Assembly (NCBI GenBank): GCA_000818095.1
Contig: CP009416.1
Location: forward strand, 2,960,501 to 3,024,500
Direction: 5' to 3'
DNA: 64,000 nucleotides
Origin: Jeotgalibacillus malaysiensis
GTDB lineage: Bacteria > Bacillota > Bacilli > Bacillales > Jeotgalibacillaceae
Shown here: positions 11,428 to 61,774 of the stretch, piece after piece
Layout: each line of letters starts with the position of its first letter
Numbering within the stretch: position 1 is the first letter of the stretch
Notes under the pieces: model-generated
Seen by the model: only the letters and a program-made list of their open reading frames with translations
Databases searched by the model: none
What the model was told of the DNA's origin: nothing
Program-made: the position numbers and the translations under genes

Positions 11428-11553
11428 GTTCGGCGGAAAACGTGTAATGTTCGGGGAATGACGATTGGTGTTCAGCGGTAAATCATCAATGTTCGGAGGA
11501 TAAGCGGTTACGTTCGGCGTTTAACCAGACTTGTTCGACGCTTAGTGAAAATA
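11428..11553 (+). repeat. Family A array 1, six 21-bp units
   Basis: GTTC(G/A)G motifs start at 11428, 11449, 11470, 11491, 11512 and 11533, exactly 21 bp apart. It lies between the start of the YczE-like gene and the end of yflT, both on the minus strand. Unit consensus across all loci: GTTCGGAGAAWAA plus about eight variable bases. Confidence 0.85.
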
Positions 11554-11620
11554 TACCTATGTCCCCTTCCTTTTTCCACAAAAAAATCTGCCCTGCTAAG
11601 AGGACAGATTTTATTTCAAG

Positions 11621-11953
11621 TTATACTGTAAAGCCTGCCGGTGCGTCTTTTACAACGACGATGACTTTACCTTCATCGAGTTTTTCTTCTAACGTTTCAG
11701 CTTCTGATGCTGTGAAACCAAGATCCTTGAACTGGTCACGCAGCTCATCGCCTTTTTTACTGAAAATATTTTTTGCTTTCGTTGCGAATCCGCCTGGCGT
11801 ATTTGCGTCAGCGTTGTCCGCAATTCGTTTTGTACGGTCATCATCATGTGTCACGACGTAGATCGTATCCTCGTTAACACCTTTTGCTTTAATGGAGCCA
11901 ATTGCATTTACTACTTCCTCATCGTTTGTGAACTCTTTGTAAAATAGACTCAT
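11621..11953 (-). CDS. yflT: YflT-type general stress protein
   Basis: 110 residues matching the heat-induced stress protein YflT family: N-terminal FYKEFTNDEEVVNAIGSIKAKG and YVVTHDDDRTKRIADNADANT, then an acidic C-terminus with EAETLEEKLDEGKVIVVV. The fold is small and soluble with no enzyme motif. Relatives belong to the sigma-B general stress regulon; I did not find a clear sigma-B promoter here. Strong ribosome binding site GGAGGAGATAAGC before the ATG. Confidence 0.85.
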   Translation of the reverse strand: MSLFYKEFTNDEEVVNAIGSIKAKGVNEDTIYVVTHDDDRTKRIADNADANTPGGFATKAKNIFSKKGDELRDQFKDLGFTASEAETLEEKLDEGKVIVVVKDAPAGFTV

Positions 11954-12040
11954 GCTTATCTCCTCCTGGTTAATTGCTGTAAATTGCTCTACAAAACAAC
12001 TCTACCCGGCAGGAGAAATAGTTAAACTTTCGAAACTTTT

Positions 12041-12514
12041 TTATGAGAGTATCACGAAAGCTCCATCCGTGATACGACTGAGGTCTTCAGGATTTATTTC
12101 AATTTGTTTACCAATCTGCCCAGCGCTTACCAAAATCGATTGATGCATGTTTGCAGTCTCATCTATAAATGTTGGAAACTGCTTTTTCATCCCGATTGGA
12201 GAGCATCCGCCTTTTATGTAACCTGTAATATGCTGAAGGCTTTTCATCGGAATCATCTCTACCTTCTTTTCCCCTGCTGCAGCTGCTGCTTTTTTAAGAT
12301 TCAGCTCGCGGTCAACCGGGATGACAAAAACATAGTATTGCTTTGACGTTCCTTGAGCAACAAGGGTTTTAAAAACTTCATCCGTTTTTCTTCCGACCTT
12401 TTCAGCAACTGACACACCGTCTGTCAGGCCGTCCTTTGAATCGTATTCGGTTGTACCATAGGAAATAGATGCAGCATCCAGTATTCTCATTGCATTAGTC
12501 TTCCCTTTCGCCAT
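12041..12514 (-). CDS. ybaK: YbaK/EbsC family Cys-tRNA(Pro) deacylase
   Basis: About 157 residues covering the YbaK editing domain: AMRILDAASISYGTTEYD, DEVFKTLVAQG, YYVFVIPVDRELNLKKAA, GYIKGGCSPIGMKKQFPTFID. The conserved Lys and GGCSPIG loop are present. The enzyme hydrolyses Cys wrongly attached to tRNA-Pro, in trans to prolyl-tRNA synthetase. The start is ATG 12514 with AAAGGGG nine bases upstream, rather than TTG 12520, which is too close. A hairpin GTATCACG / CGTGATAC overlaps the last codons but lacks a good T run. Confidence 0.9.
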   Translation of the reverse strand: MAKGKTNAMRILDAASISYGTTEYDSKDGLTDGVSVAEKVGRKTDEVFKTLVAQGTSKQYYVFVIPVDRELNLKKAAAAAGEKKVEMIPMKSLQHITGYIKGGCSPIGMKKQFPTFIDETANMHQSILVSAGQIGKQIEINPEDLSRITDGAFVILS

Positions 12515-12640
12515 GACCAAACGCCCCTTTTGTGTTTTCTGATTATTTTTATTTTACACGAATCCGGCTAAACCGTTTTACAATTTTCACTTAAGGCTCT
12601 ATGATTATTTTGGATAGCGAAATAAAATTCCTTTAATAAA

Positions 12641-12770
12641 CGCAGCTGATTGGAGCTTCAGGGGGACGCTTTCCGCGGCCGGGCGGTGAGCCCCTCCAGC
12701 TTCGCCGTATGTTCTCACCTGTCCCTTTTCCGCCGCTGGAGTCCCCGCCTTCCGTTCCAATCATCTGCTT
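12641..12770 (-). repeat. Family R element, copy 2
   Basis: Minus-strand copy. Read on that strand it starts GCAGATGATTGGA and ends TCCAATCAGCTGC (one mismatch), with core GACTCCAGC, GGTGAGAAC and GGCTCACC. It is upstream of and co-oriented with ybaK, about 127 bp from its start. Confidence 0.85.
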
Positions 12771-12836
12771 TAAAAGTATTATTTAACTTTGTGGCACATT
12801 AAATCTTAGTTAATATTCATTTTATAATTCGTACCC

Positions 12837-12966
12837 AGCTGCCTCTTGGAGTGGGGAACGGAGACTCCCGCCCCAGGAAAGTACAGGTGAGACCCCGCAA
12901 GCGGAGCTGAGGAGGCTCACCGGCTGGGGGCAGGAAAGCGCAGTTCCCCACGGAAAGAGGCAGCGG
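12837..12966 (+). repeat. Family R element, copy 3
   Basis: Plus-strand copy with ends CTGCCTCTT and AAGAGGCAG and inner arms GTGGGGAA / TTCCCCAC, core GGTGAGACCCCGC and GAGGAGGCTCACC. It ends about 46 bp before the MFS start codon. It faces copy 2 across a 66-bp AT-rich gap. Confidence 0.88.
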
Positions 12967-13011
12967 TTGTCAAATTCCATCTTTACAAAACAGAAAGTAA
13001 GAGGTTTTAAC

Positions 13012-14391
13012 ATGACAGATATAAAAGAAGTTCCTGATAGTCAGAAGAAAAAGCTGACTTTTTTAATTTGTTTAATACTCGCGTTTACGGTAATGAATGG
13101 GACAATGTTCAACGTGGCGATTCCGGATATCGCTGCAGATTTTGGTTTGTCCCCTTCACAGGTCAGCTGGGTGCTGACCGGCTATATATTGGTGTTTGCG
13201 ATCGGATCGCTAATGTATGGAAAGCTTGCTGATTTGTTTGCGATCCGTACTTTGTTTACAATTGGGATTTCCTTTTTTGCGATCGGTTCATTAATTGGAT
13301 TTTTATCGCCTAACTTTGCCACTTTAATTGTCGCAAGAATATTTCAGGCGATGGGGGGTGCGAGTATTCCGGCACTTTCATTCATTATTCCGGCAAGGTT
13401 TATGCCTTCAAGCCGCGGTAAAGTGTTTGGATACGTGGCATCGACGGTTGCATTCGCTTCCGGTGTAGGACCGATTGTCGGTGGATTAATTGGCGGCGTG
13501 CTGGATTGGCGCTTTTTATTTATTTTATCGATGATGTCTGCGCTGTCGATCCCGCTTTTCAGAAAGTGGCTGCCGATTGAGGAACGCCGAAAAGGAAGTA
13601 TTGATATTCCCGGTGCTATTTTAATCGCAATTACAGTTGCGAGTCTGCTGTTTGTCATTACAACATATACGTTATGGATTCTTGCTGTGACGGCGGTTGC
13701 CGGAGGGTTGTTTATCTGGTGGACGTTAAAGGCAAAAAATCCGTTTATCCAGCCGGCTATTTTGAAAAATAAGCGCTATACTGTGACTGTGCTGACAAGC
13801 TTTTTCGGCACGTCATGCCTGTTCGGACTGATCTTCATCATCCCGATCATGCTGCGTGATTTAAATGCTTTATCTACGATTGGTATTGGCTTAGTTCTCT
13901 TTCCTGGCGCCATTATTTCAGGCTTTCTCGGTCAGTATGGCGGGCGTGTCATTGATAAGCGCGGTGGTGTGCCGGTTGTGATTACTGCACTGCTGCTGAT
14001 TGCAGGCGGTTGCCTGCTTATTTCAACATTTGCCGGCAGTCAAGCGTGGATTATCTCAATTTGTATGCTGGTAGCCTACCTCGGCTTCCCGCTTGTACAG
14101 AGTTCAACTGCTGACATTCTCTCTTCTACGCTTAGCCGTGAGGAAAATGGGGTAGGCATCGGACTGTTCAACCTGCTGAACTTTATGGGTGGAGCATTTG
14201 CAAGTGCGATCTTTGGAGCCGTTCTTGAGATCCAGGGTGTGACGCTGAGACTGAACCCGTTTTCTTCAAGTGGTGATAACGTTATTTACAGTAACCTCTT
14301 TCTCGTATTAACGCTTCTTGCAGCTGCGAGTGTGACGTTCTTTATGATTTTTTATAAGCAAGCTTCTGCTAAGGGTGCGGAAGTGATCTGA
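13012..14391 (+). CDS. MFS drug exporter, DHA2 (Tet(K/L)-like)
   Basis: 459 residues from the ATG at 13012 (AGAGG upstream), about 14 hydrophobic segments. MFS motifs: SWVLTGYILVFAIGSLMYGKLADLFAIRTLF (motif A region), ARIFQAMGGASIPAL (motif B), and ASGVGPIVGGLIGG (antiporter motif C). The layout matches the 14-helix DHA2 family that includes Tet(L), Tet(K) and LmrB. It is an H+-coupled exporter; the substrate cannot be called from sequence, and I would not infer tetracycline resistance. Single gene, with family R copy 3 in its leader. Confidence 0.85.
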   Translation: MTDIKEVPDSQKKKLTFLICLILAFTVMNGTMFNVAIPDIAADFGLSPSQVSWVLTGYILVFAIGSLMYGKLADLFAIRTLFTIGISFFAIGSLIGFLSPNFATLIVARIFQAMGGASIPALSFIIPARFMPSSRGKVFGYVASTVAFASGVGPIVGGLIGGVLDWRFLFILSMMSALSIPLFRKWLPIEERRKGSIDIPGAILIAITVASLLFVITTYTLWILAVTAVAGGLFIWWTLKAKNPFIQPAILKNKRYTVTVLTSFFGTSCLFGLIFIIPIMLRDLNALSTIGIGLVLFPGAIISGFLGQYGGRVIDKRGGVPVVITALLLIAGGCLLISTFAGSQAWIISICMLVAYLGFPLVQSSTADILSSTLSREENGVGIGLFNLLNFMGGAFASAIFGAVLEIQGVTLRLNPFSSSGDNVIYSNLFLVLTLLAAASVTFFMIFYKQASAKGAEVI

Positions 14392-14400
14392 CATATTTCA

Positions 14401-14486
14401 GGCGACTCACTGGGGACGGAGTTGTGTGGTTCATTTTTAGAATGATTACAAAAATGGATCACTTAACTCCGTCCCGGCTGTGCCGC
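14401..14486. repeat. Family P palindrome, copy 3
   Basis: GGGGACGGAGTT (14413-14424) against AACTCCGTCCC, inner arms TCATTTTTAGAAT / ATTACAAAAATGG with one change, outer GGCGACTCAC and TGTGCCGC. It lies between the convergent MFS and topB genes. Confidence 0.85.
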
Positions 14487-14492
14487 TACCCC

Positions 14493-14534
14493 CAAAAAAG
14501 CGTTTCCCTCCACCGAGGAGAGAAACGCTTTTTC
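14493..14534. terminator. Bidirectional terminator, MFS / topB
   Basis: Stem AAAAAGCGTTTC (14495-14506) / GAAACGCTTTTT (14522-14533) with A and T tracts on both sides. It serves the convergent MFS and topB genes. Confidence 0.88.
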
Positions 14535-16685
14535 TTATAGCTTCAGGTTTTTCAGGGCATCTGCCAGTGCTGTGTTCACTGGCTCTTCTTTGTCCTGCTT
14601 TTTCATGTATTTCTTAACGTCCTGTTTACCTGCTTTGTTTTTCTGGTTTTCTTTACGGCGTTTCTGGAAGGCGTCCATTTTTTCGCGGTAGCCGCAGACG
14701 CAGCTGAATGTCTGTGCATCGCCTTCCCCGCGCAGGTCCATTTTCTTTTTACATTTTGGACAGCGCGCGTTTGTTTTCTTGGCGATATTTTTACGATGGC
14801 CGCATTCACGGTCCTGGCAGACAAGCATTTTGCCATTCTTTCCGTTTACTTCAAGCATCAGCTTGCCGCAGTCAGGGCAGTGGGTACCTGTCATATTGTC
14901 ATGCTTGTATTGCGCTTTGCTGTTTTTAATTGAGCGCACCACATCTTTGGAGAACTGCGTCATTTCGCTCATAAATGCCTGCTGCTGCAGCTTCCCGTCA
15001 GCAATTGCAGACAATTTCTGCTCCCACTCAGCTGTCAGTGCCGGCGATCTTAATTCTTCCGGAACAAGGTCAAGCAGCTGGCGTCCCTTTGATGTAAGGA
15101 AAATATCGTTGCCCCGCTTTTCGATTAAAAAGCCGTTAAACAGTTTTTCAATAATGTCTGCACGTGTGGCAACTGTACCTAGCCCGCCGGTTTCTCCGAG
15201 CTTTTCAACGAGTTCTTTCTTTTCCCCCTGCATATACGCTTTCGGGTTTTCCATCGCTGACAGGAGTGTTGCTTCATTGAATCTTGCAGGCGGCTGAGTT
15301 TCCCCGGTTGTGATACTGACGCTCTGGACCTTAAGGCGGCTCCCTTTTTCAACGTCAGGCAGTGCCGCATGCTGTTCATCTTCACTTTGATCCAGCTCTT
15401 TAAAACCAAGCTTGATTGGAATATTTCCTTTAGCGGTAAAGGTTTCACCGCCGATTTCTGCTGTAACGACTGTCTGCTCGTATTCATAAGGAGGCATCAA
15501 AACAGCGAGAAACCGCTCAGCAATCAGGCTGTAGATTTTCCATTCGCGGTCATTGAGCTTTTCAATCCGCAGCGTCTCCTCCGTCGGAATAATCGCATGG
15601 TGATCAGATACTTTTGCGTCATTGATAAAGCTGCCTGCTTTAATCGGCTTGCGCAACAGTTTTACAACATGTGGCGCGTAAGGCTGCACCTTCATCCCTT
15701 TCAGACGGTCAGCAAGCGTCTCCGTCATATCAGATGACAGAAAGCGCGAGTCTGTTCTAGGGTACGTGACGAGCTTATGCTGTTCATATAATTTCTGGAG
15801 GATGGAAAGCGTCTCTTTTGCTGAAAAATGATAGCGTTTGTGCGCATCACGCTGCAGCTCAGTCAGGTCGTATAAAGGCTTTGGATACGTCTTTTTAGGC
15901 GTCTTTTTTACATCCTTAATGACCAGTTCATGACCTTTTGTCTTCACAAACAGATTATCCGCTTTTTGCTGATCAAACGTTTGATTGGTTTTTCCATCTG
16001 TCCATTTCAGCGTTAATCCATCCGCTTTTGCCTGCAGTCCGTAAAACTTTTTCGGCTTAAACTGTTTAATTTCTTCTTCACGCATCGCAATCATGGCAAT
16101 CGTTGGTGTCTGCACACGGCCTGATGATAGCTGTGCATTAAACTTTGTTGTCAGTGCGCGCGTTGCATTGATCCCGACAATCCAGTCAGCCTCTGCACGT
16201 GCGACAGCTGAATGATAAAGTGGTACGTATCGGTCGCCGCCCTTTAAATTTTTGAAGCCTTCACGAATCGCTTTATCAGTTACCGATGAGATCCATAGAC
16301 GCTTGACCGGTTTATTTACTCTTGCCTTTTCTAAAATCCAGCGCGCAACCAGTTCCCCTTCACGCCCTGCATCGGTTGCAATGACGATCTCACCAACGTC
16401 GCCGCGCGTCAGCTGACTTTTTACTGATTGAAACTGCTTGCCTGTTTTTTTAATGACTACAAGCTTCATTTCTTTTGGTAAAATGGGCAGGTCTTCAAGG
16501 CGCCATGATTGATACTGGTCACCATAATGATCCGGGTCTGCATGTGTCACCAAATGACCGAGTGCCCATGTAACGATATATTGATCTCCTTCAAGATAAC
16601 CGTTTCCTTTTTTATGACAGTTCAGTACGCGTGCAATATCGCGGCCAACTGACGGCTTTTCAGCCAGTACAACTGTTTTCTTCAT
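14535..16685 (-). CDS. topB: DNA topoisomerase III
   Basis: 716 residues from ATG 16685 (AAAGGACGG upstream); the longer frame to 16853 runs into a repeat array and has no site. An N-terminal Toprim domain (VVLAEKPSVGRDIARVL, IATDAGREGELVARWI) is followed by the type IA core with the active-site tyrosine in LVTYPRTDSRFL. The C-terminus adds two four-cysteine zinc ribbons (HCPDCGKLM...CQDREC, RCPKCKKKM...CVCGY) and a Lys-rich tail. It relaxes and decatenates DNA by single-strand passage, in the cytoplasm. The length is normal for Bacillus TopB. Confidence 0.95.
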   Translation of the reverse strand: MKKTVVLAEKPSVGRDIARVLNCHKKGNGYLEGDQYIVTWALGHLVTHADPDHYGDQYQSWRLEDLPILPKEMKLVVIKKTGKQFQSVKSQLTRGDVGEIVIATDAGREGELVARWILEKARVNKPVKRLWISSVTDKAIREGFKNLKGGDRYVPLYHSAVARAEADWIVGINATRALTTKFNAQLSSGRVQTPTIAMIAMREEEIKQFKPKKFYGLQAKADGLTLKWTDGKTNQTFDQQKADNLFVKTKGHELVIKDVKKTPKKTYPKPLYDLTELQRDAHKRYHFSAKETLSILQKLYEQHKLVTYPRTDSRFLSSDMTETLADRLKGMKVQPYAPHVVKLLRKPIKAGSFINDAKVSDHHAIIPTEETLRIEKLNDREWKIYSLIAERFLAVLMPPYEYEQTVVTAEIGGETFTAKGNIPIKLGFKELDQSEDEQHAALPDVEKGSRLKVQSVSITTGETQPPARFNEATLLSAMENPKAYMQGEKKELVEKLGETGGLGTVATRADIIEKLFNGFLIEKRGNDIFLTSKGRQLLDLVPEELRSPALTAEWEQKLSAIADGKLQQQAFMSEMTQFSKDVVRSIKNSKAQYKHDNMTGTHCPDCGKLMLEVNGKNGKMLVCQDRECGHRKNIAKKTNARCPKCKKKMDLRGEGDAQTFSCVCGYREKMDAFQKRRKENQKNKAGKQDVKKYMKKQDKEEPVNTALADALKNLKL

Positions 16686-16758
16686 TGTTAAATCCGTCCT
16701 TTTTTGAGTTGAATTCTGTAAGTGAGTATAACATATCTGAGAGGGTGGGGTTGTGTGC

Positions 16759-16899
16759 AGGCGTTCCGTGGAGATTGATACAATGTTGAGGTGGAAAGCG
16801 ACATCTCGCCGGGTGTATCGATACAAATCCAGGCAGAACCACGACAATTCCACGCAGAACCGCTACAAATCCAGCAAAAACACAGACATTTGCCCCGCC
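16759..16899 (+). repeat. Family B array 1
   Basis: Units starting ACA at 16780, 16801, 16823, 16844, 16865 and 16886, with a weak earlier unit near 16759. Spacing is 21 bp except the 22-bp special unit at 16801, which contains CGCCGGGTGTATCG. Typical units read ACAATTCCACGCAGAACC. It lies in the gap between topB (start) and the antiporter gene (end). Confidence 0.82.
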
Positions 16900-16927
16900 C
16901 CCCTCACTATACCCCGTCTCCAAACTT

Positions 16928-16962
16928 AAAAATCCGGAAGACGCATCACTGCATCTTCCGGA
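16928..16962 (-). terminator. Terminator after CPA1 antiporter
   Basis: Stem ATCCGGAAGA / TCTTCCGGAT followed by TTTTTAAG on the minus strand, just after the antiporter stop. Confidence 0.82.
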
Positions 16963-16967
16963 TCCTA

Positions 16968-18803
16968 TTACTTATCACCATTTAGCTTCTGTTTGACCTT
17001 CTCGACTTCTTTTGTCTGAGCCGTCAGCCTGATCAATGTATCTCCAGGGTTGATCACTTCCTCCCAGTCTTTAACGAAAGGTTCAAAGTGACCCGACTTG
17101 TTCAGAACACCAATCAGGAAGTCATCCCCGTTTATTTCTTCTTTATATTTATCATACGTATATTGCTCTGTAATCTGCGTACGTCTGAATACATGGCCGT
17201 TATCGACGCGACGAATCAGTTCCTGCAGCGTTGCTTTTTCATTGAACAGCACTCTTCCGCCAACTGTGTGACGCAGTCCAGCGAGATCAGCATCATGGGT
17301 TTTTTCCATGGATACCTGGAATAGATGCTTACGTCCGATTGACGGTGTAAAGGTCGAGCAGACGAGCGCATTGTATGAATCCAGTGAGGTAGCAGCCAGA
17401 ATCGACTCATAAGGTGTCATATCCAGTCTGTACTCAGTCTGTTCAGATAAAAGCTCTCCGTGGAATGTTGGTACCCCTCTTTGTCTTGCAGGAGCAAGGT
17501 TACGCCAGGTTGAATCTACCAGAATCACAGGCACTTTCATTTCATGAAGTGTATGGGTCAGGCCTCTTGTAAATGCATTACCGCCAACCACAATGACACC
17601 AGGCCCTTCATCATTGGCAAGCTTAAGCTTTTTCGCAACCAAGCCAATTGAAAAGCCGTGTGCGACAACCGTTGAGAAAACGAGCGCAAATGTCAGTGCA
17701 GTCAGGATTTCAGCATCCTCAAAGCCTGTATCCAGCAGAACGGATGCGAAATAGCCTGAAACGGTCAGTGCGACAATTCCACGTGGTGCAATCCATCCGA
17801 CAAGCGTTCTTTCCTGCCAGGACAGATCAGTTCCAATTGTGGAAAGCCAAATGGAGAGCGGTCTCACGATTAGTAGCATCAGAACGACGTAACCGATAAT
17901 TCTCAGGTTAAAGATCTCAAGTAACGTTTCCACCTGAAGAGAAGCCGTCAGCATAATAAAAATCGTTGAGATCAGAAGAACTGATATATTTTCCTTAAAA
18001 TGACGCATATCCCCAATAGAAGAGATATGCATATTCGCCATTGTCATCCCCATTGCTGTAACCGACAGCAGGCCTGTCTCATGCATGACTTCATCTGCTA
18101 CACTGAAACAAAACAGTACCACTGCGAATAAAACAGGTGACTTTAGAAATTCAGGAATATATCCCTTTTCAAACATCCATCCCATCCCGCGTCCAAGCAC
18201 CCAGCCGAGTACTGTGGCAAATGCAGCAGCGCCAAAGAATAGCAGCAGGCTCGTAAATGTAACTTCTTCATCGACAAAGAACAGGATAATCTGGAATGCA
18301 AATAAAGCAAGCAGGACACCAAGCGGATCAACAATAATCCCTTCCCATTTCAATATTTTTGCAGGGCGGGGTTTAAGCTTGGCCTGTCTTAGTAGCGGTA
18401 AAATAACGGTTGGTCCGGTTACGATAAACAGTCCACCGATAACGAAAGCAACCGGCAAGGACAATCCTGCTATGTAATGCGCTGTTAATGAACCGAGAAT
18501 CCAGGCGATAAATGCCCCGAAAGTGACGATTCTGAATACAGGCTTTCCGAGATCACGAATCTCCCGAAAATCCAGCTGAAGACTTCCTTCAAATAAGATA
18601 ATAGCAACCGCCATTGAAATAATTGGACCGTATAAATCCCCAAACTCCTGTTCAGGGTTAATAAATCCAAGTACTGGCCCTACAATTATACCGGCAACTG
18701 ACATCACAACAATTGCAGGAAGCCGGATGCGCCATGAGAGCCACTGTGAAAGGATTCCTAAAAAGACGACAAGCATCGCCGTAAATAACAGAGAATTAAA
18801 CAA
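16968..18803 (-). CDS. CPA1-type cation/proton antiporter with TrkA domains
   Basis: 611 residues. The N-terminal ~390 residues have about 12 hydrophobic segments of the Na+(K+)/H+ exchanger fold (VIGGLFIVTGPTVILPLL, then the ion-site stretch WEGIIVDPLGVLLAL). The C-terminal part holds a Rossmann-like TrkA-N segment (VIVVGGNAFTRGLTHTL) and a TrkA-C-like domain (DDFLIGVLNKSG...GDTLIRLTAQ), which usually senses nucleotides. It resembles NhaP2/KefC-like exporters. The start is TTG 18803, with AAAGGTGG about ten bases upstream; the start is uncertain. Confidence 0.85.
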   Translation of the reverse strand: MFNSLLFTAMLVVFLGILSQWLSWRIRLPAIVVMSVAGIIVGPVLGFINPEQEFGDLYGPIISMAVAIILFEGSLQLDFREIRDLGKPVFRIVTFGAFIAWILGSLTAHYIAGLSLPVAFVIGGLFIVTGPTVILPLLRQAKLKPRPAKILKWEGIIVDPLGVLLALFAFQIILFFVDEEVTFTSLLLFFGAAAFATVLGWVLGRGMGWMFEKGYIPEFLKSPVLFAVVLFCFSVADEVMHETGLLSVTAMGMTMANMHISSIGDMRHFKENISVLLISTIFIMLTASLQVETLLEIFNLRIIGYVVLMLLIVRPLSIWLSTIGTDLSWQERTLVGWIAPRGIVALTVSGYFASVLLDTGFEDAEILTALTFALVFSTVVAHGFSIGLVAKKLKLANDEGPGVIVVGGNAFTRGLTHTLHEMKVPVILVDSTWRNLAPARQRGVPTFHGELLSEQTEYRLDMTPYESILAATSLDSYNALVCSTFTPSIGRKHLFQVSMEKTHDADLAGLRHTVGGRVLFNEKATLQELIRRVDNGHVFRRTQITEQYTYDKYKEEINGDDFLIGVLNKSGHFEPFVKDWEEVINPGDTLIRLTAQTKEVEKVKQKLNGDK

Positions 18804-18876
18804 CTCCGTGACACCACCTTTACGTTCAAACTGATATGCCTAATACTTTACCAGTTATCACTTCTGATAAGAAGAA

Positions 18877-19524: not shown

Positions 19525-19604
19525 CCTGTCCACCGCCTTTACCAATATATCGACAGTTATCTCGATTTCTAAACAATTCAGGCAGTGGGGATGTGTTCGA
19601 TGAA

Positions 19605-19645
19605 TCTAAAAAAGCTATGTGTCAAGCGCGCAACACATAGCTTTC
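19605..19645 (-). terminator. Terminator after transglutaminase operon
   Basis: Stem AAAGCTATGTGT / ACACATAGCTTT followed by T on the minus strand. Confidence 0.88.
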
Positions 19646-19658
19646 AAGATAAGGCATT

Positions 19659-25735: not shown

Positions 25736-25736
25736 A

Positions 25737-42041: not shown

Positions 42042-42075
42042 AGGATGGGGGACGTGCTGCGGGAGTTAGTAGGTC

Positions 42076-42201
42076 TTTTTACACTCTTCTGCGAACGTCC
42101 TTGTTTTTTCTCCGAACATACTTGAATAAACGTCGAACATGACCGGTTGAACGCTGAACAATCGATGTTTTTCTCCGAACATGGCCATTTATTCTACGAA
42201 C
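42076..42201 (-). repeat. Family A array 2, six 21-bp units
   Basis: On the minus strand GTTC begins at 42201, 42180, 42159, 42138, 42117 and 42096: exactly six units at 21 bp. The last reads GTTCGCAGAAGAGTGTAA, matching the last unit at other loci. It lies between convergent genes, just past the dipeptidase terminator. Confidence 0.88.
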
Positions 42202-47953: not shown

Positions 47954-48018
47954 TATTGCATTTGCGCGATCCGGGAGGCTTGGCTTCCGGTTCGTATTTT
48001 GTGGTCGGGGCATAGGTC

Positions 48019-48144
48019 TAATGACACTCTTCTACGAACGATGGTGATTTTTCTACGAACCTGTCATGTATTTCTAAGAACCACACGATCTATTCTCCGA
48101 ACATACCATGTTTTTCTAAGAACATCCCGCGCTTTTCCACGAAC
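48019..48144 (-). repeat. Family A array 3, six 21-bp units
   Basis: On the minus strand GTTC begins at 48144, 48123, 48102, 48081, 48060 and 48039. The last unit is GTTCGTAGAAGAGTGTCA. It lies between the convergent ywbE and helicase genes. Confidence 0.88.
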
Positions 48145-53230: not shown

Positions 53231-53234
53231 TGTG

Positions 53235-53267: not shown

Positions 53268-53275
53268 TATGATTT

Positions 53276-53364: not shown

Positions 53365-53367
53365 ACA

Positions 53368-53676
53368 TCACCCGCCAAACATCGTCGCAAAAATAAACGT
53401 AAACAAAATCGGTGCAATCCACACAATCGGCAGGCTGTTCACAAGCAGCATCTTCTTCCAGTTATATTTATGGTAAGACATCCAGGAGATCACGATGGCA
53501 ATCATCAAAATCACTGGGTATGACCCGACAGCATAGAGCACCATGCGTCCTGCAAATGATCCATCCTGCTCTATATTCATGAGCGATACGCCGTAAAAGG
53601 TGAACCAGATCGGCAGAAATAATAAGTAAAAAAACTGGCTTCCGAATAACAGCAAAGCCACCTTGGCATTTTTCAA
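53368..53676 (-). CDS. Small membrane protein, 102 aa
   Basis: Three hydrophobic segments (VALLLFGSQFFYLLFLPIWF; MVLYAVGSYPVILMIAIVIS; MLLVNSLPIVWIAPILFTFI). No recognised family and no charged residues of obvious function in the membrane. It is 14 bp downstream of msrAB on the same strand, so probably co-transcribed. Confidence 0.65.
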   Translation of the reverse strand: MKNAKVALLLFGSQFFYLLFLPIWFTFYGVSLMNIEQDGSFAGRMVLYAVGSYPVILMIAIVISWMSYHKYNWKKMLLVNSLPIVWIAPILFTFIFATMFGG

Positions 53677-53690
53677 CAGAAGGTCCTCCT

Positions 53691-54644: not shown

Positions 54645-54659
54645 TTTTGTTCACCTCTA

Positions 54660-55445
54660 TCAATTACCGTGCTGCAACGCGCTCATCCAGTAACACACAA
54701 CTGCAGCAGCAAGTGTTTTTTCCTTCTCAGAAAGCTGATCTCCTACTTTTACAAGATCCAGCGCAGCGGACTTCTGGAACTGCGGCTTCATGACATAATC
54801 AAAATACCCTTGTCTATACGATGCAAAGAATCTGCCGTCCTGCGTCGATAAGTCAAAGTCCCCTGCCATCGATTTCTTTTTCACATCACACAGCAGCTCT
54901 CTATCAGCGGTATAGATCGATCCACTGATTTTAGTCAGCTTTCTTTCTTCTTTAAGATAACCTGCTGTTTCCCCGTTATGGTCTCTGATTTCAAGCACAG
55001 TGCACCCATCTTCTTTTCTTTTTTGAAAAGCGACTGCTGGTTCATTATGCGAGGTAAAGATCCCTGCTGTAAAAGAAAAGTATGTTTCCAATCCGGCAAA
55101 AGCGGCAGAAATCACTTTTTTAATAAACGGCTGGTTCACAATTTTATAAGCGCCAATGTACTCTCCGTCTTTATTCAGTATCGTCATAACCCCTGCCGAA
55201 CTTCCACCCCACTCAAAAATCCACTCACCTTCATCTAGTATTGACCGACCCTCAAGCTCAGCAGCCTTAGCCAGCCACTTCGCCTGTTTTTCCTTCGATC
55301 TTATGTAAAAGTACGGGGACATCCCGATTGCGAAAACCGGAAATGCCAATGCACTTAAAAATTCGACGTCCACATAAAGCATAAGTGCAACAACCGCCCC
55401 CATAAATACAAATCCTGCCACCAACGCCACATTTTCTTTTTTCAT
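54660..55445 (-). CDS. Hypothetical membrane-anchored protein, 261 aa
   Basis: It starts MKKENVALVAGFVFMGAVVA at 55445 (GGGGTG upstream). Two adjacent hydrophobic helices (residues ~5-50), then a soluble domain of about 200 residues with a repeated beta pattern (DEGEWIFEWGGSSAGVMTIL, EIRDHNGETAGYLKEER). It resembles scramblase/tubby-like beta-barrel proteins in pattern but I cannot assign it. It is 16 bp upstream of msrAB on the same strand. Confidence 0.6.
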   Translation of the reverse strand: MKKENVALVAGFVFMGAVVALMLYVDVEFLSALAFPVFAIGMSPYFYIRSKEKQAKWLAKAAELEGRSILDEGEWIFEWGGSSAGVMTILNKDGEYIGAYKIVNQPFIKKVISAAFAGLETYFSFTAGIFTSHNEPAVAFQKRKEDGCTVLEIRDHNGETAGYLKEERKLTKISGSIYTADRELLCDVKKKSMAGDFDLSTQDGRFFASYRQGYFDYVMKPQFQKSAALDLVKVGDQLSEKEKTLAAAVVCYWMSALQHGN

Positions 55446-55507
55446 CCCGGACACCCCACTTTTTCTCACTATTTATACGGTTAGATGTGTAAATTGTTTC
55501 ATTTATA

Positions 55508-55634
55508 TTTGGTCCGGGAGAGGTTGTTTGTATTTCAGACCAGGTTGCAGGGTATCTCCGTTCAGGACGTCGCGATATACCCGGGAGCTTGTCGGTCTTC
55601 ATGCGTCAGTTATCTGTATCCGTCCTATGCTTGT
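55508..55634 (-). repeat. Family B array 4b
   Basis: On the minus strand units begin at 55634, 55613, 55592, 55570, 55549 and 55528. Six units at 21 bp with the third one 22 bp and containing CTCCCGGGTATATCGCG. Confidence 0.82.
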
Positions 55635-55719
55635 TCGCTACCTCTATCAGAATTGCCTGCACCACTCCTCTTAATGCATTTAGACACTAAAGCCTGTTTC
55701 CCAAGTGCATGCAGGGCCT

Positions 55720-55846
55720 GGCGGGCAGGCTCGCATATGTCGCTATGATCGCTGGAATTGCCTCTATTCCACCGCAGCACATCTCGATACACCCGGGAAT
55801 TTGACTGCATCCCCGCGTAAGTTGTGCGTATTTCCCCTGAGCTTGT
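55720..55846 (-). repeat. Family B array 4a
   Basis: On the minus strand units begin at 55846, 55825, 55804, 55782, 55761 and 55740. Six units with the third 22 bp long and containing TTCCCGGGTGTATCGAG. About 85 bp of unassigned sequence separates it from array 4b. The two arrays fill the 475-bp gap between the 261-aa gene and the response regulator. Confidence 0.84.
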
Positions 55847-55883
55847 TCAGTTCCGCTACCTAAATTATTCTATTAAACCCAAA

Positions 55884-55916
55884 AGAAAAACTCCCGGGCT
55901 TCTGCCAGGGAGTCAG
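55884..55916 (-). terminator. Terminator after response regulator
   Basis: ACTCCC / GGGAGT with a 12-base loop, then TTTTTC on the minus strand. Confidence 0.75.
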
Positions 55917-55920
55917 TCAT

Positions 55921-56289
55921 CTATTTCAATCTATTTTTTAAATGCTGAGTTAAAGTCGTTCTTAACATTTCCGACGTCAGCGGCAACACATCTCCGGTGG
56001 TTTTCTTACCTTCTCTTGCCACTTGTAACCCTCTTGTTGCATCTTCGTGATGCCACAGATACACAATCGGACATTTGGAATACTCTCTGATTTGACGGAA
56101 CCAGTAAAAACCGTCGAAAAAAGGTAGTTTCACATCCAAGAGCACCAGGTCTGGCTTTTCTTCGATGAAATGCTCTATAATCCGTTCAAAATCTGTGACC
56201 GGTATGGATTGATACCCCAGGTCAGAAACCTGTTCTGTGAGATCCAAGCGAAGGTCAGCGTTATCTTCAATAATCATGATTCGCTGCAT
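55921..56289 (-). CDS. Truncated BceR-like response regulator (receiver only)
   Basis: 122 residues. Receiver domain with acidic pocket IIEDNADLR and phospho-acceptor Asp in LVLLDVKLPFFDGFYWFRQIR. The FFDGFYWxRQIR segment is typical of BceR/NsaR/GraR regulators of antimicrobial-peptide sensing. After PIVYLW the switch Thr/Ser and the conserved Lys-Pro are missing, and no OmpR-type DNA-binding domain follows. It is either a decayed gene or a stand-alone receiver. No histidine kinase is nearby. A possible promoter with TTGACA lies near 56440-56450 on the minus strand. Confidence 0.7.
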   Translation of the reverse strand: MQRIMIIEDNADLRLDLTEQVSDLGYQSIPVTDFERIIEHFIEEKPDLVLLDVKLPFFDGFYWFRQIREYSKCPIVYLWHHEDATRGLQVAREGKKTTGDVLPLTSEMLRTTLTQHLKNRLK

Positions 56290-56492
56290 GCTGATGACCT
56301 CCTAACTACTTCATTCCATAAGCCTGATGGTCACATTTATTAACTGATTTAAATTTAGAAAAAAATACGCTCCTTACATTTGAAAACAATCGTTCAACAG
56401 GTTGCGATCTGTTGTTCCCATCTTTTCATACTTAACCGTTTTTGTCAAAGGCTGTAAGCAAAACTTATTTGTTTACCTCATAATAATAAGTC

Positions 56493-56864
56493 TTAAACGT
56501 GGTATTCCAGAAATTCTAACTTATTTCCAAAAGGATCTCTGACAAAAAACCTGGTTCTTCCTTCGATCGGCTGCTCTTCCTGAATAGTGATGTTCTCTTC
56601 AGATAAACGAATGCGAAGTTCCTCCAGGTGCTTGACTACAAAGGCTGGATGCGCCTTACGCGGAGAAGTATACGGCTCCTCACGCCCGATGTGTATTTCC
56701 TGGTTTCCACACAAAAACCAGCAGCCACCGTTCCCACGAAGGTTAACAGGCTTAGGTGTTTCTTTCAACCCCAGCAGGTCAGAATAAAATCTGCGCGCCT
56801 CATCTTCACTGCCTGCAGGTGCCGTCAATTGTACGTGATCAATGCCCTCAAACTGAAAACTCAT
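56493..56864 (-). CDS. VOC/glyoxalase-family protein
   Basis: 123 residues. A single vicinal-oxygen-chelate domain: FEGIDHVQLTAPAGSEDEARRFYSDLLGL (metal His), CWFLCGNQEIHIGRE, and FVRDPFGNKLEFLEY (metal Glu). Such proteins include lyases and antibiotic-binding proteins; the substrate is unknown. Its ATG overlaps the stop of the upstream gene (TGATG), so translation is coupled. Confidence 0.85.
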   Translation of the reverse strand: MSFQFEGIDHVQLTAPAGSEDEARRFYSDLLGLKETPKPVNLRGNGGCWFLCGNQEIHIGREEPYTSPRKAHPAFVVKHLEELRIRLSEENITIQEEQPIEGRTRFFVRDPFGNKLEFLEYHV

Positions 56865-57127
56865 CACATCATCCCCTTTATTTTTTCTTCTACTAATTTA
56901 ATAAATTCGATTGGATTTTCTCTTACTTTATAAGGGTAAAGTCCGCGGGTCGTATGCACATATAAAAGACCAAAGCTTCTTTGGCTTTCTCTGTAAGAAA
57001 GGTCAAGAATTTCGTGGAAATAAAATTCATTGGAGTCGTCAGTCAGTTTTTGAGGGTAAAGGTGCAGAAAGCTTTTATGTTCAATGATATGTTGTTCTTC
57101 CCACTCAATCTTACGTGTGATCATCAC
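56864..57127 (-). CDS. Conserved-looking hypothetical protein, 87 aa
   Basis: Soluble protein with a mixed alpha/beta pattern (EFYFHEILDLSYRESQRSFG, LLYVHTTRGLYPYKVRENP). It ends in the TGATG overlap with the VOC gene, so the two form an operon. No family recognised; the YPYKV-type stretch resembles PH-like folds only loosely. Confidence 0.55.
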   Translation of the reverse strand: MMITRKIEWEEQHIIEHKSFLHLYPQKLTDDSNEFYFHEILDLSYRESQRSFGLLYVHTTRGLYPYKVRENPIEFIKLVEEKIKGMM

Positions 57128-57324
57128 ATACGGATGCGAAGCGATGCGGCTGATAAAAAAACCTCCCTTAAAATCGATTACTTCCTATTATTTTAACGAA
57201 TTTACCTTAAGAAAGATATCCGCAGGGCTTAGTCACAAACATTTAATCTCGCTGTAATCTTTTCTTCATTAAAGAGGATTTACACAGATTTATCAAAAAA
57301 GTTTATTCCTACTGCCATCTATAT

Positions 57325-57338
57325 TGTAAGCGTTACCA
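57325..57338. promoter_or_regulatory. cre box upstream of argC
   Basis: TGTAAGCGTTACCA matches the CcpA consensus TGWAARCGNTWNCW at all positions. It lies about 50 bp upstream of the argC -35 box, a place where CcpA can activate or repress. Confidence 0.7.
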
Positions 57339-57373
57339 TAAACTGAATTGCGTAACATTTTATAAAAATACGG

Positions 57374-57402
57374 TTGATTTTATTTTTATACATCTCTATA
57401 AT
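57374..57402 (+). promoter_or_regulatory. argC promoter
   Basis: TTGATT (57374-57379), 17 bp, perfect TATAAT (57397-57402). The AT-rich sequence around it (for example TGAATTGCGTAACA at 57343) holds only partial ARG-box matches, so AhrC/ArgR control is likely from biology but not proven here. Confidence 0.82.
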
Positions 57403-57433
57403 ATGCCTAACATATTTTTTTGGAGTGATGGAT

Positions 57434-58465
57434 GTGAAAGTTGGAATTATAGGTGCAACCGGTTATGGCGGTCTTGAGCTCATCAGGCTTTTACATCGTC
57501 ACAGCGGAATTACATCAATTGACTTGTTTACTTCGTCTGATGAAGGAGAGTTATTTTCTCATAAATATACATATTTAATGAATATTTATGACACGCCTCT
57601 TCATAAAATCAGAATTGAACATTTAGCAAAACTGGATGTTATATTCACAAGTACACCAAGCGGCGTAACAAGCAGATTGCTGCCTCCTCTGATCGGTAAG
57701 GGGCCGCGGATTATTGATTTGTCAGGCGATTTTCGTCTATCAGCTGAAGATTACAGTGAATGGTACGGCAAGGATGCAGCACCGGAGTCTTCTCTTCAAA
57801 AGTCAGTATATGGACTGACCGAGTGGAATCGGGATGCTGTAAAGGATGCTGTTATGGTCGCAAACCCGGGCTGTTATCCGACAGCTGTACTGCTGAGTCT
57901 GCTTCCTGCTGTTAAAAACGGATTGATTAACACAGACAATCTGATCATCGATGCGAAAAGCGGTGTATCAGGTGCAGGAAATAAGCCGAATCAAATGACT
58001 CATTTCAGCGAAACAAATGAAAGTCTTTCTATCTATAAAGTAAATAAACATCAGCATATACCTGAAATCGAAACGGGCCTTGCCCGGTTTGCGGAGAAGA
58101 CACGACCCATCACCTTCAGCACCCACCTCGTGCCAATGACGCGGGGAATCTTGGCAGCCGCTTATGCACCGCTTGCTGACGGTGTAACTGAAAAGCAGCT
58201 GCAGGAATGTTATCAGGACAGCTACCAGAATGAAACATTCGTCAGAGTGATGCCGCCGGGACCGAAGTTCAGCACAAACCAGGTATATGGCTCCAATTAC
58301 TGCGACCTTCAGATCCACGTGGATAAGCGGACGAACCGCGCCACGATCGTCTCAGTGATTGATAATCTTGTAAAAGGCGCTGCAGGTCAGGCGATCCAGA
58401 ATATGAACGTTCAGTTCGGATTTAAAGAAACAGAAGGACTCGATCTGGTTCCTTCGTATATATAA
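57434..58465 (+). CDS. argC: N-acetyl-gamma-glutamyl-phosphate reductase
   Basis: 343 residues. NADP-binding VKVGIIGATGYGGLELIRLL, catalytic Cys in VMVANPGCYPTAVLLSLLP, and His in FSTHLVPMTRGI. Third step of arginine synthesis. The start is GTG 57434, with GGAG eight bases upstream; ATG 57428 is only two bases from it. First gene of argC-J-B-D. Confidence 0.94.
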   Translation: MKVGIIGATGYGGLELIRLLHRHSGITSIDLFTSSDEGELFSHKYTYLMNIYDTPLHKIRIEHLAKLDVIFTSTPSGVTSRLLPPLIGKGPRIIDLSGDFRLSAEDYSEWYGKDAAPESSLQKSVYGLTEWNRDAVKDAVMVANPGCYPTAVLLSLLPAVKNGLINTDNLIIDAKSGVSGAGNKPNQMTHFSETNESLSIYKVNKHQHIPEIETGLARFAEKTRPITFSTHLVPMTRGILAAAYAPLADGVTEKQLQECYQDSYQNETFVRVMPPGPKFSTNQVYGSNYCDLQIHVDKRTNRATIVSVIDNLVKGAAGQAIQNMNVQFGFKETEGLDLVPSYI

Positions 58466-58519
58466 CTGACAACGAACAGCTATTTAAAGAGCACCGCATT
58501 TTAAGGAGATGAAGTTTGT

Positions 58520-59746
58520 ATGACAACTGTCTATCCATCAATTAAGAAAATTTCAGGTAATAATATTGCTTCGCCAATTGGATTTAAAGCTGCGGGACTT
58601 CATTGCGGCATTAAACATAAGAAGAACGACCTTGCACTGCTTGTCAGTGACGTCCCTGCAAATGCTGCGGGTGTGTATACGACGAATGCGGTTCAGGCTG
58701 CTCCTTTAAAAGTCACAAAGGAAGCACTCGCTGTTGAGAAGAAAATGCAGGCAATCATCGTGAATTCAGGAAATGCCAATGCCTGTACCGGAAAACAGGG
58801 CTATGTGGATGCGCAGACGATGCAGCATTTAACAGCAAATCTTTTAAATATTGAATCTCACCTTGTAGGCGTTGCTTCAACAGGCGTAATCGGTGAGAAG
58901 CTGCCAATGGACCGCTTAAAGTATGGGATTCCAAAGCTTGAACCGGTTGCCGGTTTAAAAGGATCAATCGACTTTTCGCAGTCGATCCTGACGACTGATA
59001 CCGTTTCTAAAAATACGGCTTATAAAGTGGACATTGACGGAAAAACCGTGACCGTTGCAGGTACTGCAAAAGGTTCCGGTATGATTCATCCAAATATGGC
59101 AACGATGCTTGGATTCATTTCAACAGACGCTGCGATTGAATCAGATCACCTGCACAGCGCGCTGAAATCCGTTGTAGACCGCTCATTTAACTCCATTACA
59201 GTTGATGGTGATACATCAACAAATGATATGGTGCTCGTGATGGCAAACGGACTTGCTGAAAACGAGACGCTCTCCCCTTCTCACCCTGACTGGAAAGTGT
59301 TCGTTCAGACACTTTTACACGTCTGTGAGGATCTTGGCAAAATGATCGCCAAAGATGGTGAAGGTGCGACAAAGCTGATTGAGGTTGAAGTAAATGGTGC
59401 GAAGAACGATGAGGAAGCGCGTAAGATCGCTAAAACAGTAGTCGGCTCGCCACTTGTCAAAACAGCGGCATTCGGCTGTGATGCGAACTGGGGACGTATT
59501 CTCGCTGCTGTAGGGTATAGCGGCATGACGATTGATCCGAACGAAGTTGAAATTCTGATTGGCTCAACACCGGTCGTTCGAGAAGGAGAACCACTTCCAT
59601 TCTCAGAGGATGAACTGACAGAATATCTGAAGCAGCCTGAAATCAAACTGAAGGTCAACGTGAATCAGGGCGATGGAAAAGGACTTGCCTGGGGGTGCGA
59701 CCTGACATATGACTATGTCCAGATCAACGCAAGCTACAGAACATAA
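58520..59746 (+). CDS. argJ: Ornithine acetyltransferase / N-acetylglutamate synthase
   Basis: 408 residues. The autocleavage site KGSGMIHPNMATMLGF carries the nucleophilic Thr that starts the beta chain. SITVDGDTSTNDM and AFGCDANWGRILAAVGYSG are also typical. It recycles the acetyl group between acetylornithine and glutamate. AAGGAG lies 11 bases before the ATG. It overlaps argB by 38 bp. Confidence 0.95.
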   Translation: MTTVYPSIKKISGNNIASPIGFKAAGLHCGIKHKKNDLALLVSDVPANAAGVYTTNAVQAAPLKVTKEALAVEKKMQAIIVNSGNANACTGKQGYVDAQTMQHLTANLLNIESHLVGVASTGVIGEKLPMDRLKYGIPKLEPVAGLKGSIDFSQSILTTDTVSKNTAYKVDIDGKTVTVAGTAKGSGMIHPNMATMLGFISTDAAIESDHLHSALKSVVDRSFNSITVDGDTSTNDMVLVMANGLAENETLSPSHPDWKVFVQTLLHVCEDLGKMIAKDGEGATKLIEVEVNGAKNDEEARKIAKTVVGSPLVKTAAFGCDANWGRILAAVGYSGMTIDPNEVEILIGSTPVVREGEPLPFSEDELTEYLKQPEIKLKVNVNQGDGKGLAWGCDLTYDYVQINASYRT

Positions 59747-60479
59747 AACAGTGATTAAACTCGGCGGCAGCCTGCTTGAGCGGCTGACACCCGACTTTTT
59801 CAAAGGCATTCAGCAAATGATTGAAAGCGGCAAACGGGTCATCATCGTTCACGGCGGCGGCCCTGCCATTAACCGTAAACTGAAAGAAGCGCAGGTGGAA
59901 ACACATGTTGTAAACGGACTGCGCGTGACCCCTGCTGAGGCGATTGACATTGTCCAGACCACACTGATCGGCTCAGTCAATCCATGGATCGTTCATCAGC
60001 TTGAACAGGCGGATATCCAGGCAGTCGGCTTAAACGGCTTTGACGGCGGATTAATGAAAGCATCATATTTAGATCAGGACACATATGGCTATGTCGGACA
60101 GATCGATCATGTGAACCCTGCCCTGCTCTATCTTTTAAAAGATGCTGTACCGGTGATTTCATGCATTGGAAGAACAGACAAGGGTCAGGCGCTGAACATC
60201 AATGCTGACACAGCCGCTGAAAAGATTGCCGCTGCTATCCAGGCGGACGAACTGCTTTTTGTGACTGATACACCGGGAATTAAAGTAAACGGTCAGACCG
60301 TCACAACCACCCATCCTGATGAAATCAACGGCTGGATCGCTGACGGTACAATATACGGCGGTATGATTCCAAAAGTTCAGGCAGCTGCCGGCTGTCTGGA
60401 CGCAGATATTCCGGCTGTCCGGATTGTTAATGAAATGCTTGAAGGCACAACAATTTTTAAGGAGGTGGCTGTTAAATGA
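59709..60479 (+). CDS. argB: Acetylglutamate kinase
   Basis: About 256 residues. Amino-acid kinase fold: TVIKLGGSLLERL (Lys), VIIVHGGGPAIN, ALNINADTAAEKIAAAI, and GGMIPKVQAA. It phosphorylates N-acetylglutamate, usually the committed step. The exact start is uncertain: ATG 59709 or 59715 lie inside argJ with only a distant GGGGG. Its stop overlaps argD (ATGA). Confidence 0.93.
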   Translation: MTMSRSTQATEHKTVIKLGGSLLERLTPDFFKGIQQMIESGKRVIIVHGGGPAINRKLKEAQVETHVVNGLRVTPAEAIDIVQTTLIGSVNPWIVHQLEQADIQAVGLNGFDGGLMKASYLDQDTYGYVGQIDHVNPALLYLLKDAVPVISCIGRTDKGQALNINADTAAEKIAAAIQADELLFVTDTPGIKVNGQTVTTTHPDEINGWIADGTIYGGMIPKVQAAAGCLDADIPAVRIVNEMLEGTTIFKEVAVK

Positions 60480-61630
60480 GTGCACTTTTTCAAAATTACG
60501 CGCGGCGTTCACTTCATATCGTAAAAGGTGAAGGAACAACCGTCTGGGATGACCAGGGTAAAACTTATCTTGATTTCACAAGCGGCATCGCTGTTGTAAG
60601 CCTCGGACACAGCCATCCGAAAATGGTGAGTGCACTGCAGGCACAGGCAGAAAATCTCTGGCACATTTCAAACCTGTTTGAAAGCCCTGCCCAGGAAAAG
60701 CTCGCTGCTGATCTTGTAAAAGACACACCGCTTTCACGTGCACTGTTTTGTAATAGCGGAGCTGAAGCAAATGAAGCCGCGATCAAGCTTGCACGGAAAG
60801 CAACTGGAAAGCACGTTATCATCACATTTGACCGGTCCTTTCACGGAAGAACAACGGGTGCCATGGCGGCAACCGGTCAGGATAAAGTAAAAGAAGGTTT
60901 CGGTCCGCTCATGCCTGAGTTCCGGACGATTCCTTTTAACGATATAAAAGCTTTAAAAGCTGCAGTTGATGAAGATACCGCAGCCGTCATGCTTGAAGTC
61001 ATTCAGGGTGAAGGCGGCGTGAATCCGATTGATGATGAGTTTGCAGCTGAACTTCAGAAACTGAGTGAATCAGAGGGCTTTCTGCTGGTGATTGATGAAG
61101 TACAAACCGGAATCGGGCGAACGGGCACAAGATATGCGTTCGAACAGACGCCACTTAAGCCGGATATCGTTACGCTCGCAAAAGGACTTGGCGGCGGATT
61201 CCCAGTCGGTGCAATACTCGGCTCAGAAGCGCTAGCCGAATATTTCGGTCCAGGTTCACACGGATCCACATATGGCGGTAACCCGCTCGCTGTCACTGCA
61301 GCCCAGACGGTCGTGGATCATGTATTTGATGAAGCATTCCTTGAAGAAGTCCGGCAAAAATCCGCTTACCTTCGCGAACAGCTCGCTTCACTCTTCGGAC
61401 TCTCGCAGGTAACCTGCATTCAGGGAAAAGGGTTAATGCTTGGCATCGTGCTGAGTACTGAAGCTGCACCGATTGTTAAAAAAGCAGAGGAAAACGGCTT
61501 GCTGCTCGTACCCGCAGGACCAAACGTGATCCGGCTGCTTCCCCCGCTTACTGTCAGCTATGAAGAGTGCAAACAGGCTGCTTCATTGCTTGAGAAGACG
61601 ATGATGCAGGTGGAGTATACGGTGAGTTGA
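60476..61630 (+). CDS. argD: Acetylornithine aminotransferase
   Basis: 384 residues. Class III PLP aminotransferase: YLDFTSGIAVVSLGHSHP, FCNSGAEANEAAIKLAR, VIDEVQTGIGRTGT and the PLP lysine in VTLAKGLGGGFPVG. AAGGAGG sits nine bases before the ATG, inside argB. Last gene before an intergenic region with repeats and a terminator. Confidence 0.95.
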   Translation: MSALFQNYARRSLHIVKGEGTTVWDDQGKTYLDFTSGIAVVSLGHSHPKMVSALQAQAENLWHISNLFESPAQEKLAADLVKDTPLSRALFCNSGAEANEAAIKLARKATGKHVIITFDRSFHGRTTGAMAATGQDKVKEGFGPLMPEFRTIPFNDIKALKAAVDEDTAAVMLEVIQGEGGVNPIDDEFAAELQKLSESEGFLLVIDEVQTGIGRTGTRYAFEQTPLKPDIVTLAKGLGGGFPVGAILGSEALAEYFGPGSHGSTYGGNPLAVTAAQTVVDHVFDEAFLEEVRQKSAYLREQLASLFGLSQVTCIQGKGLMLGIVLSTEAAPIVKKAEENGLLLVPAGPNVIRLLPPLTVSYEECKQAASLLEKTMMQVEYTVS

Positions 61631-61648
61631 GGATTGGGGTTTTAGGAG

Positions 61649-61774
61649 GTTCGGAGAATAATCGTGGATGTTCGGAGAAAAACGTTGTGTGTTCGTAGAA
61701 TGCCGTTGTGTGTTCGGAGAAAAACACCTGACGTTCGTAGAAAAAACACGATGGTTCTTAGAATAGTGTAATTT
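61649..61774 (+). repeat. Family A array 4, six 21-bp units
   Basis: GTTC at 61649, 61670, 61691, 61712, 61733 and 61754. The last unit is GTTCTTAGAATAGTGTAA. It is directly downstream of argD and before the internal terminator of the arginine cluster. Confidence 0.9.

Follow-up and report, generated by a model that had tools for sequence, protein, structure and literature searches.

What are four intergenic arrays, each repeating GTTC six times in steps of exactly 21 bp, doing in the chromosome of Jeotgalibacillus malaysiensis, and is there a protein to which they belong? The stretch that raises this question (the window, 64,000 nucleotides) covers positions 2,960,501-3,024,500 of contig C1, which is 3,516,439 bp long in a genome of 4.12 Mb on two contigs. 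By comparing the arrays across the genome, the genus and the order Bacillales, we come to the view that they and the genes for NERD-domain proteins very probably form one system, which seems to be widespread and, to all appearances, new to the literature. We further consider it reasonably probable that the arrays are the DNA half, and the NERD protein the protein half, of a chromosome-borne two-part system of the REPIN/RAYT kind.

The association is visible at C1:505,285-506,262 of the same chromosome, where a gene for a NERD-domain protein carries an array on each side, with the last units facing the gene. It is also seen on a wider scale. Among 63 NERD genes, the loci of which were picked by protein match and lie mostly outside Jeotgalibacillus, an array within 700 bp was present with period 21 at 30 and with period 20 at 11, while each of the periods 18, 19, 22, 23 and 24 occurred at one gene at most; when the four loci first noticed by their arrays are left out, period 21 remains at 26 of 59. 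A phased array was found at none of 37 control genes (20 arbitrary stretches from ten of the same genomes). In a named set of 80 NERD loci, scanned at a stricter threshold, period 21 was found at 33, period 20 at 18 and either of them at 50, with any other period from 16 to 28 at no more than 3 (6 at a laxer threshold), and removing the five loci that had already been seen leaves 45 of 75 with a 21- or 20-bp array. That the periods occurring beside the partner genes are 21 and 20 supports the proposal of the initial annotation that the arrays present six sites on one helical face.

NERD genes bordered by arrays have, in nearly all cases with two sides to compare, a motif of their own. In 25 of the 26 cases with arrays on both sides, one motif was shared by the two sides and scored above the arrays of every other NERD gene (a test that for period 20 used five controls per case only), in direct orientation in 19 cases and inverted in 6, the exception being locus L465; from one NERD gene to the next, the motifs are unrelated. 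Array presence is also clustered on the NERD tree, requiring 29 changes, compared to a minimum of 31 in 300 shuffles. Among the NERD genes with 20-bp arrays, L318, L320, L338 and others have a single motif on both sides. On the 5' side of a second NERD gene of J. malaysiensis (L290, C1:2,811,700-2,818,200) lies a short array of the GGTCAC type, and a longer NERD protein of 479 residues, encoded on the 603-kb contig C2 (L291), is without arrays.

The pairing of gene and motif can be followed through the genus, where G000 denotes the J. malaysiensis source genome, G001 is J. alimentarius and the other G numbers are Jeotgalibacillus congeners unless stated. The arrays fall into several core types: A (GTTCNNAGAAWAAC), B (GTTCGRCGYWWAAC, often found with A in one array), C (GTTCAGGAGATTAC), a type seen in G002 (GTTCGCAGAATTTTG), and others. 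The locus that we call NERD-1 has a sucrose-hydrolase-like gene on one side and a GntR/ABC pair on the other. In each genome its NERD gene and its arrays belong to a single type: G000 has A, G001 and G006 have B, G011 has C, and G002 and G009 have a GTTTGTGAG-type. The NERD-1 proteins of the two B genomes, G001 and G006, have an identity of 0.81, compared to 0.57 between the sisters G001 (B) and G011 (C), in which the proteins flanking NERD-1 are 0.99, 0.99 and 0.89 identical. NERD identity follows the array type, while the flanking proteins follow the species. At this locus the NERD allele and the array motif have changed jointly, in conflict with the species tree. Orthologues of NERD-1 (at least 44% identity) are present in seven of the eight genus genomes with GTTC arrays and in none of the four without. 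Counting all NERD genes, there are 6 in G000, 4 in G001, 5 in G002, 3 in G004, 7 in G006, 3 in G008, 5 in G009 and 5 in G011, and 1, 1, 1 and 0 in G003, G005, G007 and G010.

The partner protein matches the Pfam family NERD (PF08378) with an E-value of 1.1e-17 and 64.9 bits, against a gathering score of 22.1, and no transposase family is among its Pfam matches. Its approximately 330 residues comprise a PD-(D/E)XK-type NERD domain, a zinc ribbon and a predicted C-terminal winged helix. E46, D79 and E92-x-K94 are invariant in 15 NERD sequences, and across 61 sequences the D and K are invariant and both E are kept at 90% or more; the four zinc-ligand Cys are invariant or nearly so. By these residues the protein is nuclease-like, and we treat it as a predicted nuclease. 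An AlphaFold2 model, with a mean predicted local distance difference test score of 93.2, ends in a winged helix of three helices and two strands, and it is this part that probably reads the array units. The top Foldseek ranks were taken by an R2 retrotransposon protein, the nickase Nt.BspD6I and other PD-(D/E)XK enzymes, with no match at E 0.001 or better; a sequence search of the PDB returned nothing convincing, and PADLOC and NCBIfam gave weak matches alone, to the NERD part of PglW and MAD6. The protein is chromosomal, with one partial match in 72,556 plasmid records and none in 50,697 phage records.

Within the window, phased GTTC (at least three at 21 bp) is found at the four loci only, which are listed here in window coordinates together with the motifs that terminate them.

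11428..11553, plus strand: array 1, six 21-bp units, mixed, type B cores predominating; last unit GTTCGACGCTTAGTGAAAATA
11554..11560, plus strand: terminal motif of array 1, TACCTAT, after unit 6; +1 to +6 kept between orthologues
42076..42201, minus strand: array 2, six 21-bp units, type A, with units 3-4 of type B
42070..42075, minus strand: terminal motif of array 2, GACCTA, after unit 6
48019..48144, minus strand: array 3, six 21-bp units, type A
48013..48018, minus strand: terminal motif of array 3, GACCTA, after unit 6
61649..61774, plus strand: array 4, six 21-bp units, type A; between two co-directional genes; the next gene reads like carA
61775..61780, plus strand: terminal motif of array 4, GACCTA, after unit 6

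The four loci agree with the initial annotation in coordinates, strand and the six GTTC at 21 bp. The uniform conserved core that it described did not hold up, as array 1 and units 3-4 of array 2 are largely of the second type, GTTCGRCGYWWAAC, mixed with GTTCNNAGAAWAAC. Its special last unit is borne out, and the marked end is even longer than supposed, with KACCTA directly following unit 6 at four of four loci. What it had not seen are the several core types, the replacement of one type by another at the same site, the avoidance of the terminus third and the pairing with NERD genes. A motif-free scan of the window over periods 15-33 returned five arrays at period 21, namely the four together with a weaker array at 16763; of the other periods, only 30 gave an array, a single one. 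The weak period-21 array (16763-16889, TCCANGCAGAACC) lies close to the 5' end of a minus-strand gene. At 9290-9443, between two genes, there is a degenerate repeat of the 21-bp type with another core (GGTGACAGAAT) and a spacing partly out of register, which is probably an array of another type.

Beyond the window, the J. malaysiensis genome has 45 matches to the end pattern, versus 1 for a reversed control pattern, and 161 four-unit matches versus 4 (overlapping registers of one array being counted apart), and we collected at least 56 arrays from the 3.5-Mb chromosome. Nine of 12 genus genomes contain the six-unit pattern with up to two mismatches, one of them (G003) as a coding-type repeat, and seven contain it exactly; exact matches are absent from G003, G005, G007, G008 and G010, of which G008 has five at two mismatches. 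At the level of the order, six exact GTTC units were found in 54 of 397 genomes, a figure that we do not use as a count of systems since intergenic arrays and coding repeats are lumped together in it and matches were obtained with the reversed control pattern too. Exactly six units make up 127 of 152 arrays from seven genus genomes, counted with a lenient extension rule under which chance matches may add a unit, and sampled unevenly (G006 4, G009 5, G002 8, G011 13, G001 29, G004 37, G000 56). In other genera the number runs from 6 to 27. The fixed copy number originally proposed therefore applies to Jeotgalibacillus and fails elsewhere; the counts in other genera go part of the way towards what was named at the outset as speaking against a defined element (freely varying counts with no special last unit), while within the genus the end unit is special and a defined element with a special end is supported.

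The sequences of orthologous arrays show which parts of this element are kept. In 32 orthologous pairs of similar arrays, which are not mutually independent, differences affect 0-4% of comparisons at bases 1-4 of units 1-5 and 28-39% at bases 13-20; they affect 3-16% at bases 14-21 of unit 6 and 9-25% at the next six bases. The flanks further out differ in 34-81%, shifts by insertion and deletion included. Because orthologues keep core, phase and end while their flanks drift, the element has sharp borders, running from unit 1 to KACCTA. Its surroundings are unequal: in 32 type-A arrays the last 25 bases before the array are G/T-rich (G.46, T.32, C.07, A.14) and the flank after it is A/C-rich, a very strong switch in composition across the element. 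A nested hairpin or structured RNA, to which these opposed compositions had pointed, was rejected, there being no covariation and no excess column complementarity in 54 aligned arrays, with the best helix scores at noise level and no preferred register.

The same sites can hold different arrays. We grouped 114 arrays into 39 orthologous sites, with equal orientation in all 120 orthologous site pairs, and of the 37 sites common to at least two of the five nearest genomes, 23 have more than one array type. At the site of array 4, three genomes (G000, G004 and G006) have type A, G001 has B and G011 has C, and seven further congeners lack an array; the site of array 2 has other array types in congeners, and tandem arrays of two types occur at L003 in G000 and at L196 and L201 in G004. 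How one array comes to overlie another is best seen in J. alimentarius, where two old units remain at the site orthologous to array 1 (L469) and a 172-bp tract comes after them. This tract, made up of six units and 46 bp, is 98.3% identical to a six-unit array plus 46 bp at a second site, 173 kb from the first; it is joined in register at the first GTTC, and there is homology to the array 1 site on both sides. Likewise, two J. malaysiensis arrays 5 kb apart are 93.6% identical over 125 bp, with the alignment ending at the array ends. Read at the sequence level, this indicates that arrays are copied and replaced in place.

As a mechanism, we picture the winged helix, with the zinc ribbon, binding one unit, so that six units two helical turns apart would align six copies of the protein on one face of the DNA. 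The assembled nuclease would nick or cut at or beside the array, and repair would copy array DNA from another copy or allele, with the outcome that arrays spread, persist and give way to newer types written over them, in a dependence similar to that of REPINs on RAYTs. We infer the binding of units, the cleavage and the driving role of NERD in the copying, and the same applies to any benefit to the host; copying driven by the NERD nuclease is the mechanism that we hold most likely, at somewhat less than an even chance. Somewhat less likely still, the arrays may be a nuclease-driven lineage of replicating DNA, in which an incoming NERD gene settles with its own motif and its arrays then overwrite the resident ones site by site in register, a succession resembling a gene drive. 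On this view, replacement would be under way in G011, where a C-type NERD stands among mostly B arrays, and in G006, where a B-type NERD stands among mostly A arrays; G004 would have lost its driver, and the terminus gap would reflect where copying succeeds or is tolerated.

Several observations weigh against a NERD-driven system. No array at threshold was found for 51 of 130 NERD genes, and the period (20 or 21), tried as a clade trait, was rejected, with 19 changes on the NERD tree versus a shuffle mean of 20.7. The solved folds nearest to the NERD model are weak matches. G004, a draft assembly, is rich in A and C arrays yet lacks NERD-1, and the commonest scattered type is A in G006, the NERD-1 of which lies beside B arrays, and B in G011, with NERD-1 beside C arrays (G002 and G009 lie outside this classification of scattered arrays). 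The 98% copy could be due to ordinary ectopic gene conversion. The gap in G004, the mismatches in G006 and G011 and the NERD genes without arrays may represent turnover in progress or the action of other NERD paralogues.

The main rival to nuclease-driven copying is that the arrays mark the chromosome: NERD or another protein would bind them to mark, tether or insulate DNA, as at Noc or SlmA sites, and the nuclease domain would be structural or rarely used. This possibility, to which we assign a smaller though still appreciable likelihood, derives from the distribution of the arrays. With the origin placed at the ends of C1, because dnaA is at its start and parB/noc at its end, one of the 56 J. 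malaysiensis arrays lies in the terminus-centred third (P 4e-9 for a uniform expectation of one third), or one of 29 when neighbours within 20 kb are merged (P 1e-4); the widest array-free gap is 1.04 Mb, and C2 has no arrays versus 8.2 expected. The uniform null behind these values takes no account of how gene density and gene conservation vary along the chromosome, and the avoidance may express either a function in chromosome marking or the ecology of the element. Array position and orientation are, moreover, kept across species, and a cell-biological role for a NERD-like protein has a precedent in SmdA of S. aureus, a membrane protein acting in division, the NERD domain of which is partial (PMC9040797). 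However, a basic function would sit oddly with the fact that some congeners have no arrays at all, that a genome has several motifs and that motifs get replaced.

The arrays also have a preferred position relative to genes, and it could thus be argued that they punctuate transcription, acting at gene 3' ends beside terminators as protein road-blocks or 3'-end elements, with the NERD link being secondary. The neighbours of the 152 arrays are convergent in 62 cases, co-directional in 61 and 24, divergent in only 4 and unassigned in 1 (by crude calls of open reading frames), and the composition switch described above fits such a role. REP-type elements, however, avoid promoters to an equal degree without being terminators, most bacterial convergent sites have no array, and two sites examined in array-free congeners consist of close-set genes with a terminator only. 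As this proposal also leaves the arrays beside NERD genes unexplained, we regard it as improbable.

For ParB- or Noc-family sites, in which a ParB-like protein would bind parS-like type B units, the argument is that some of these units fit what we take to be the parS consensus at 14 of 16 positions; but types A, C and the G002 type are unlike parS, each of 12 congeners has exactly two ParB-family proteins whether it has arrays or none, and the presumed Noc site is present in all 12, which makes this reading very unlikely. No more credence is due to ordinary degenerate tandem repeats or remnants of coding repeats, which could draw on the variable unit counts of other genera and on a GTT frame with fewer stops than expected by column permutation (19 versus 37.2 +/- 5.1), given that frame 1, although full of stops, is depleted too (89 versus 139.7 expected), that there is no common start, that unrelated cores beside NERD genes share the identical exact phase, and that GTTC and phase are retained between orthologues with changing flanks. 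A short coding repeat was rejected as a candidate, in line with the initial annotation, because even the best frame, GTT, has stops in 14 of 54 arrays over units 1-5 and no consistent start codon lies upstream, and we judge the arrays to be non-coding by their sequence. Unit 6 often reads GTG TAA in the GTT frame.

With the NERD pairing, the intergenic 21-bp repeats of Bacillales gain a protein partner and an orphan nuclease-like domain gains a concrete candidate DNA target. If the two-part reading is true, Gram-positive bacteria have a REPIN/RAYT counterpart of their own that is made of unrelated components and uses helical phasing as its recognition code, and the series of protein/motif pairs provides natural material for studying the evolution of DNA specificity. 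Searches of the open-access literature found no report of repeat arrays beside NERD genes, and nothing on such phased arrays in the literature on known repeats.

Among known systems, single palindromic sites are read by a ParB- or TetR-type protein at the Noc-binding sites and SlmA-binding sites. The arrays resemble these in numbering tens of chromosomal sites, few or none of them near the terminus and none seen on the second contig, and differ from them in architecture; canonical sites of the Noc-binding kind occur in these genomes as well, apart from the arrays. Plasmid iterons and TnsB-type site arrays are likewise direct repeats about 20-22 bp apart that are read by a DNA-binding protein, whereas here the arrays are scattered over the chromosome at gene ends, with no linked replication protein or transposase. 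In CRISPR the repeats are identical, unlike the diverged 21-bp units seen here. The partner protein is a member of the NERD family by Pfam, and the arrays beside its gene would set it apart from the NERD proteins described in the literature searched. The closest parallel is REPIN/RAYT of Pseudomonas and enterics, in which an enzyme gene is reported to be adjoined by repeats of its own type, with scattered extragenic copies, several types per genome and co-evolution of enzyme and repeat (PMC3116915). All of these features recur with NERD in the place of RAYT: own-type repeats beside the gene, the same repeats dispersed in extragenic space, as also in G204 of the order-level scan (with the mismatch to NERD-1 in G006 and G011), and several co-evolving types per genome. 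However, RAYT is a Y1 (HUH) tyrosine transposase and NERD is PD-(D/E)XK-like, the palindromic REPs in inverted pairs contrast with helically phased direct arrays of six or more units without hairpin signal, and at a given site one array type takes the place of another. Both the enzyme and the repeat architecture thus differ from the known repeat-plus-enzyme system, and, as far as the open-access literature searched shows, the system appears undescribed.

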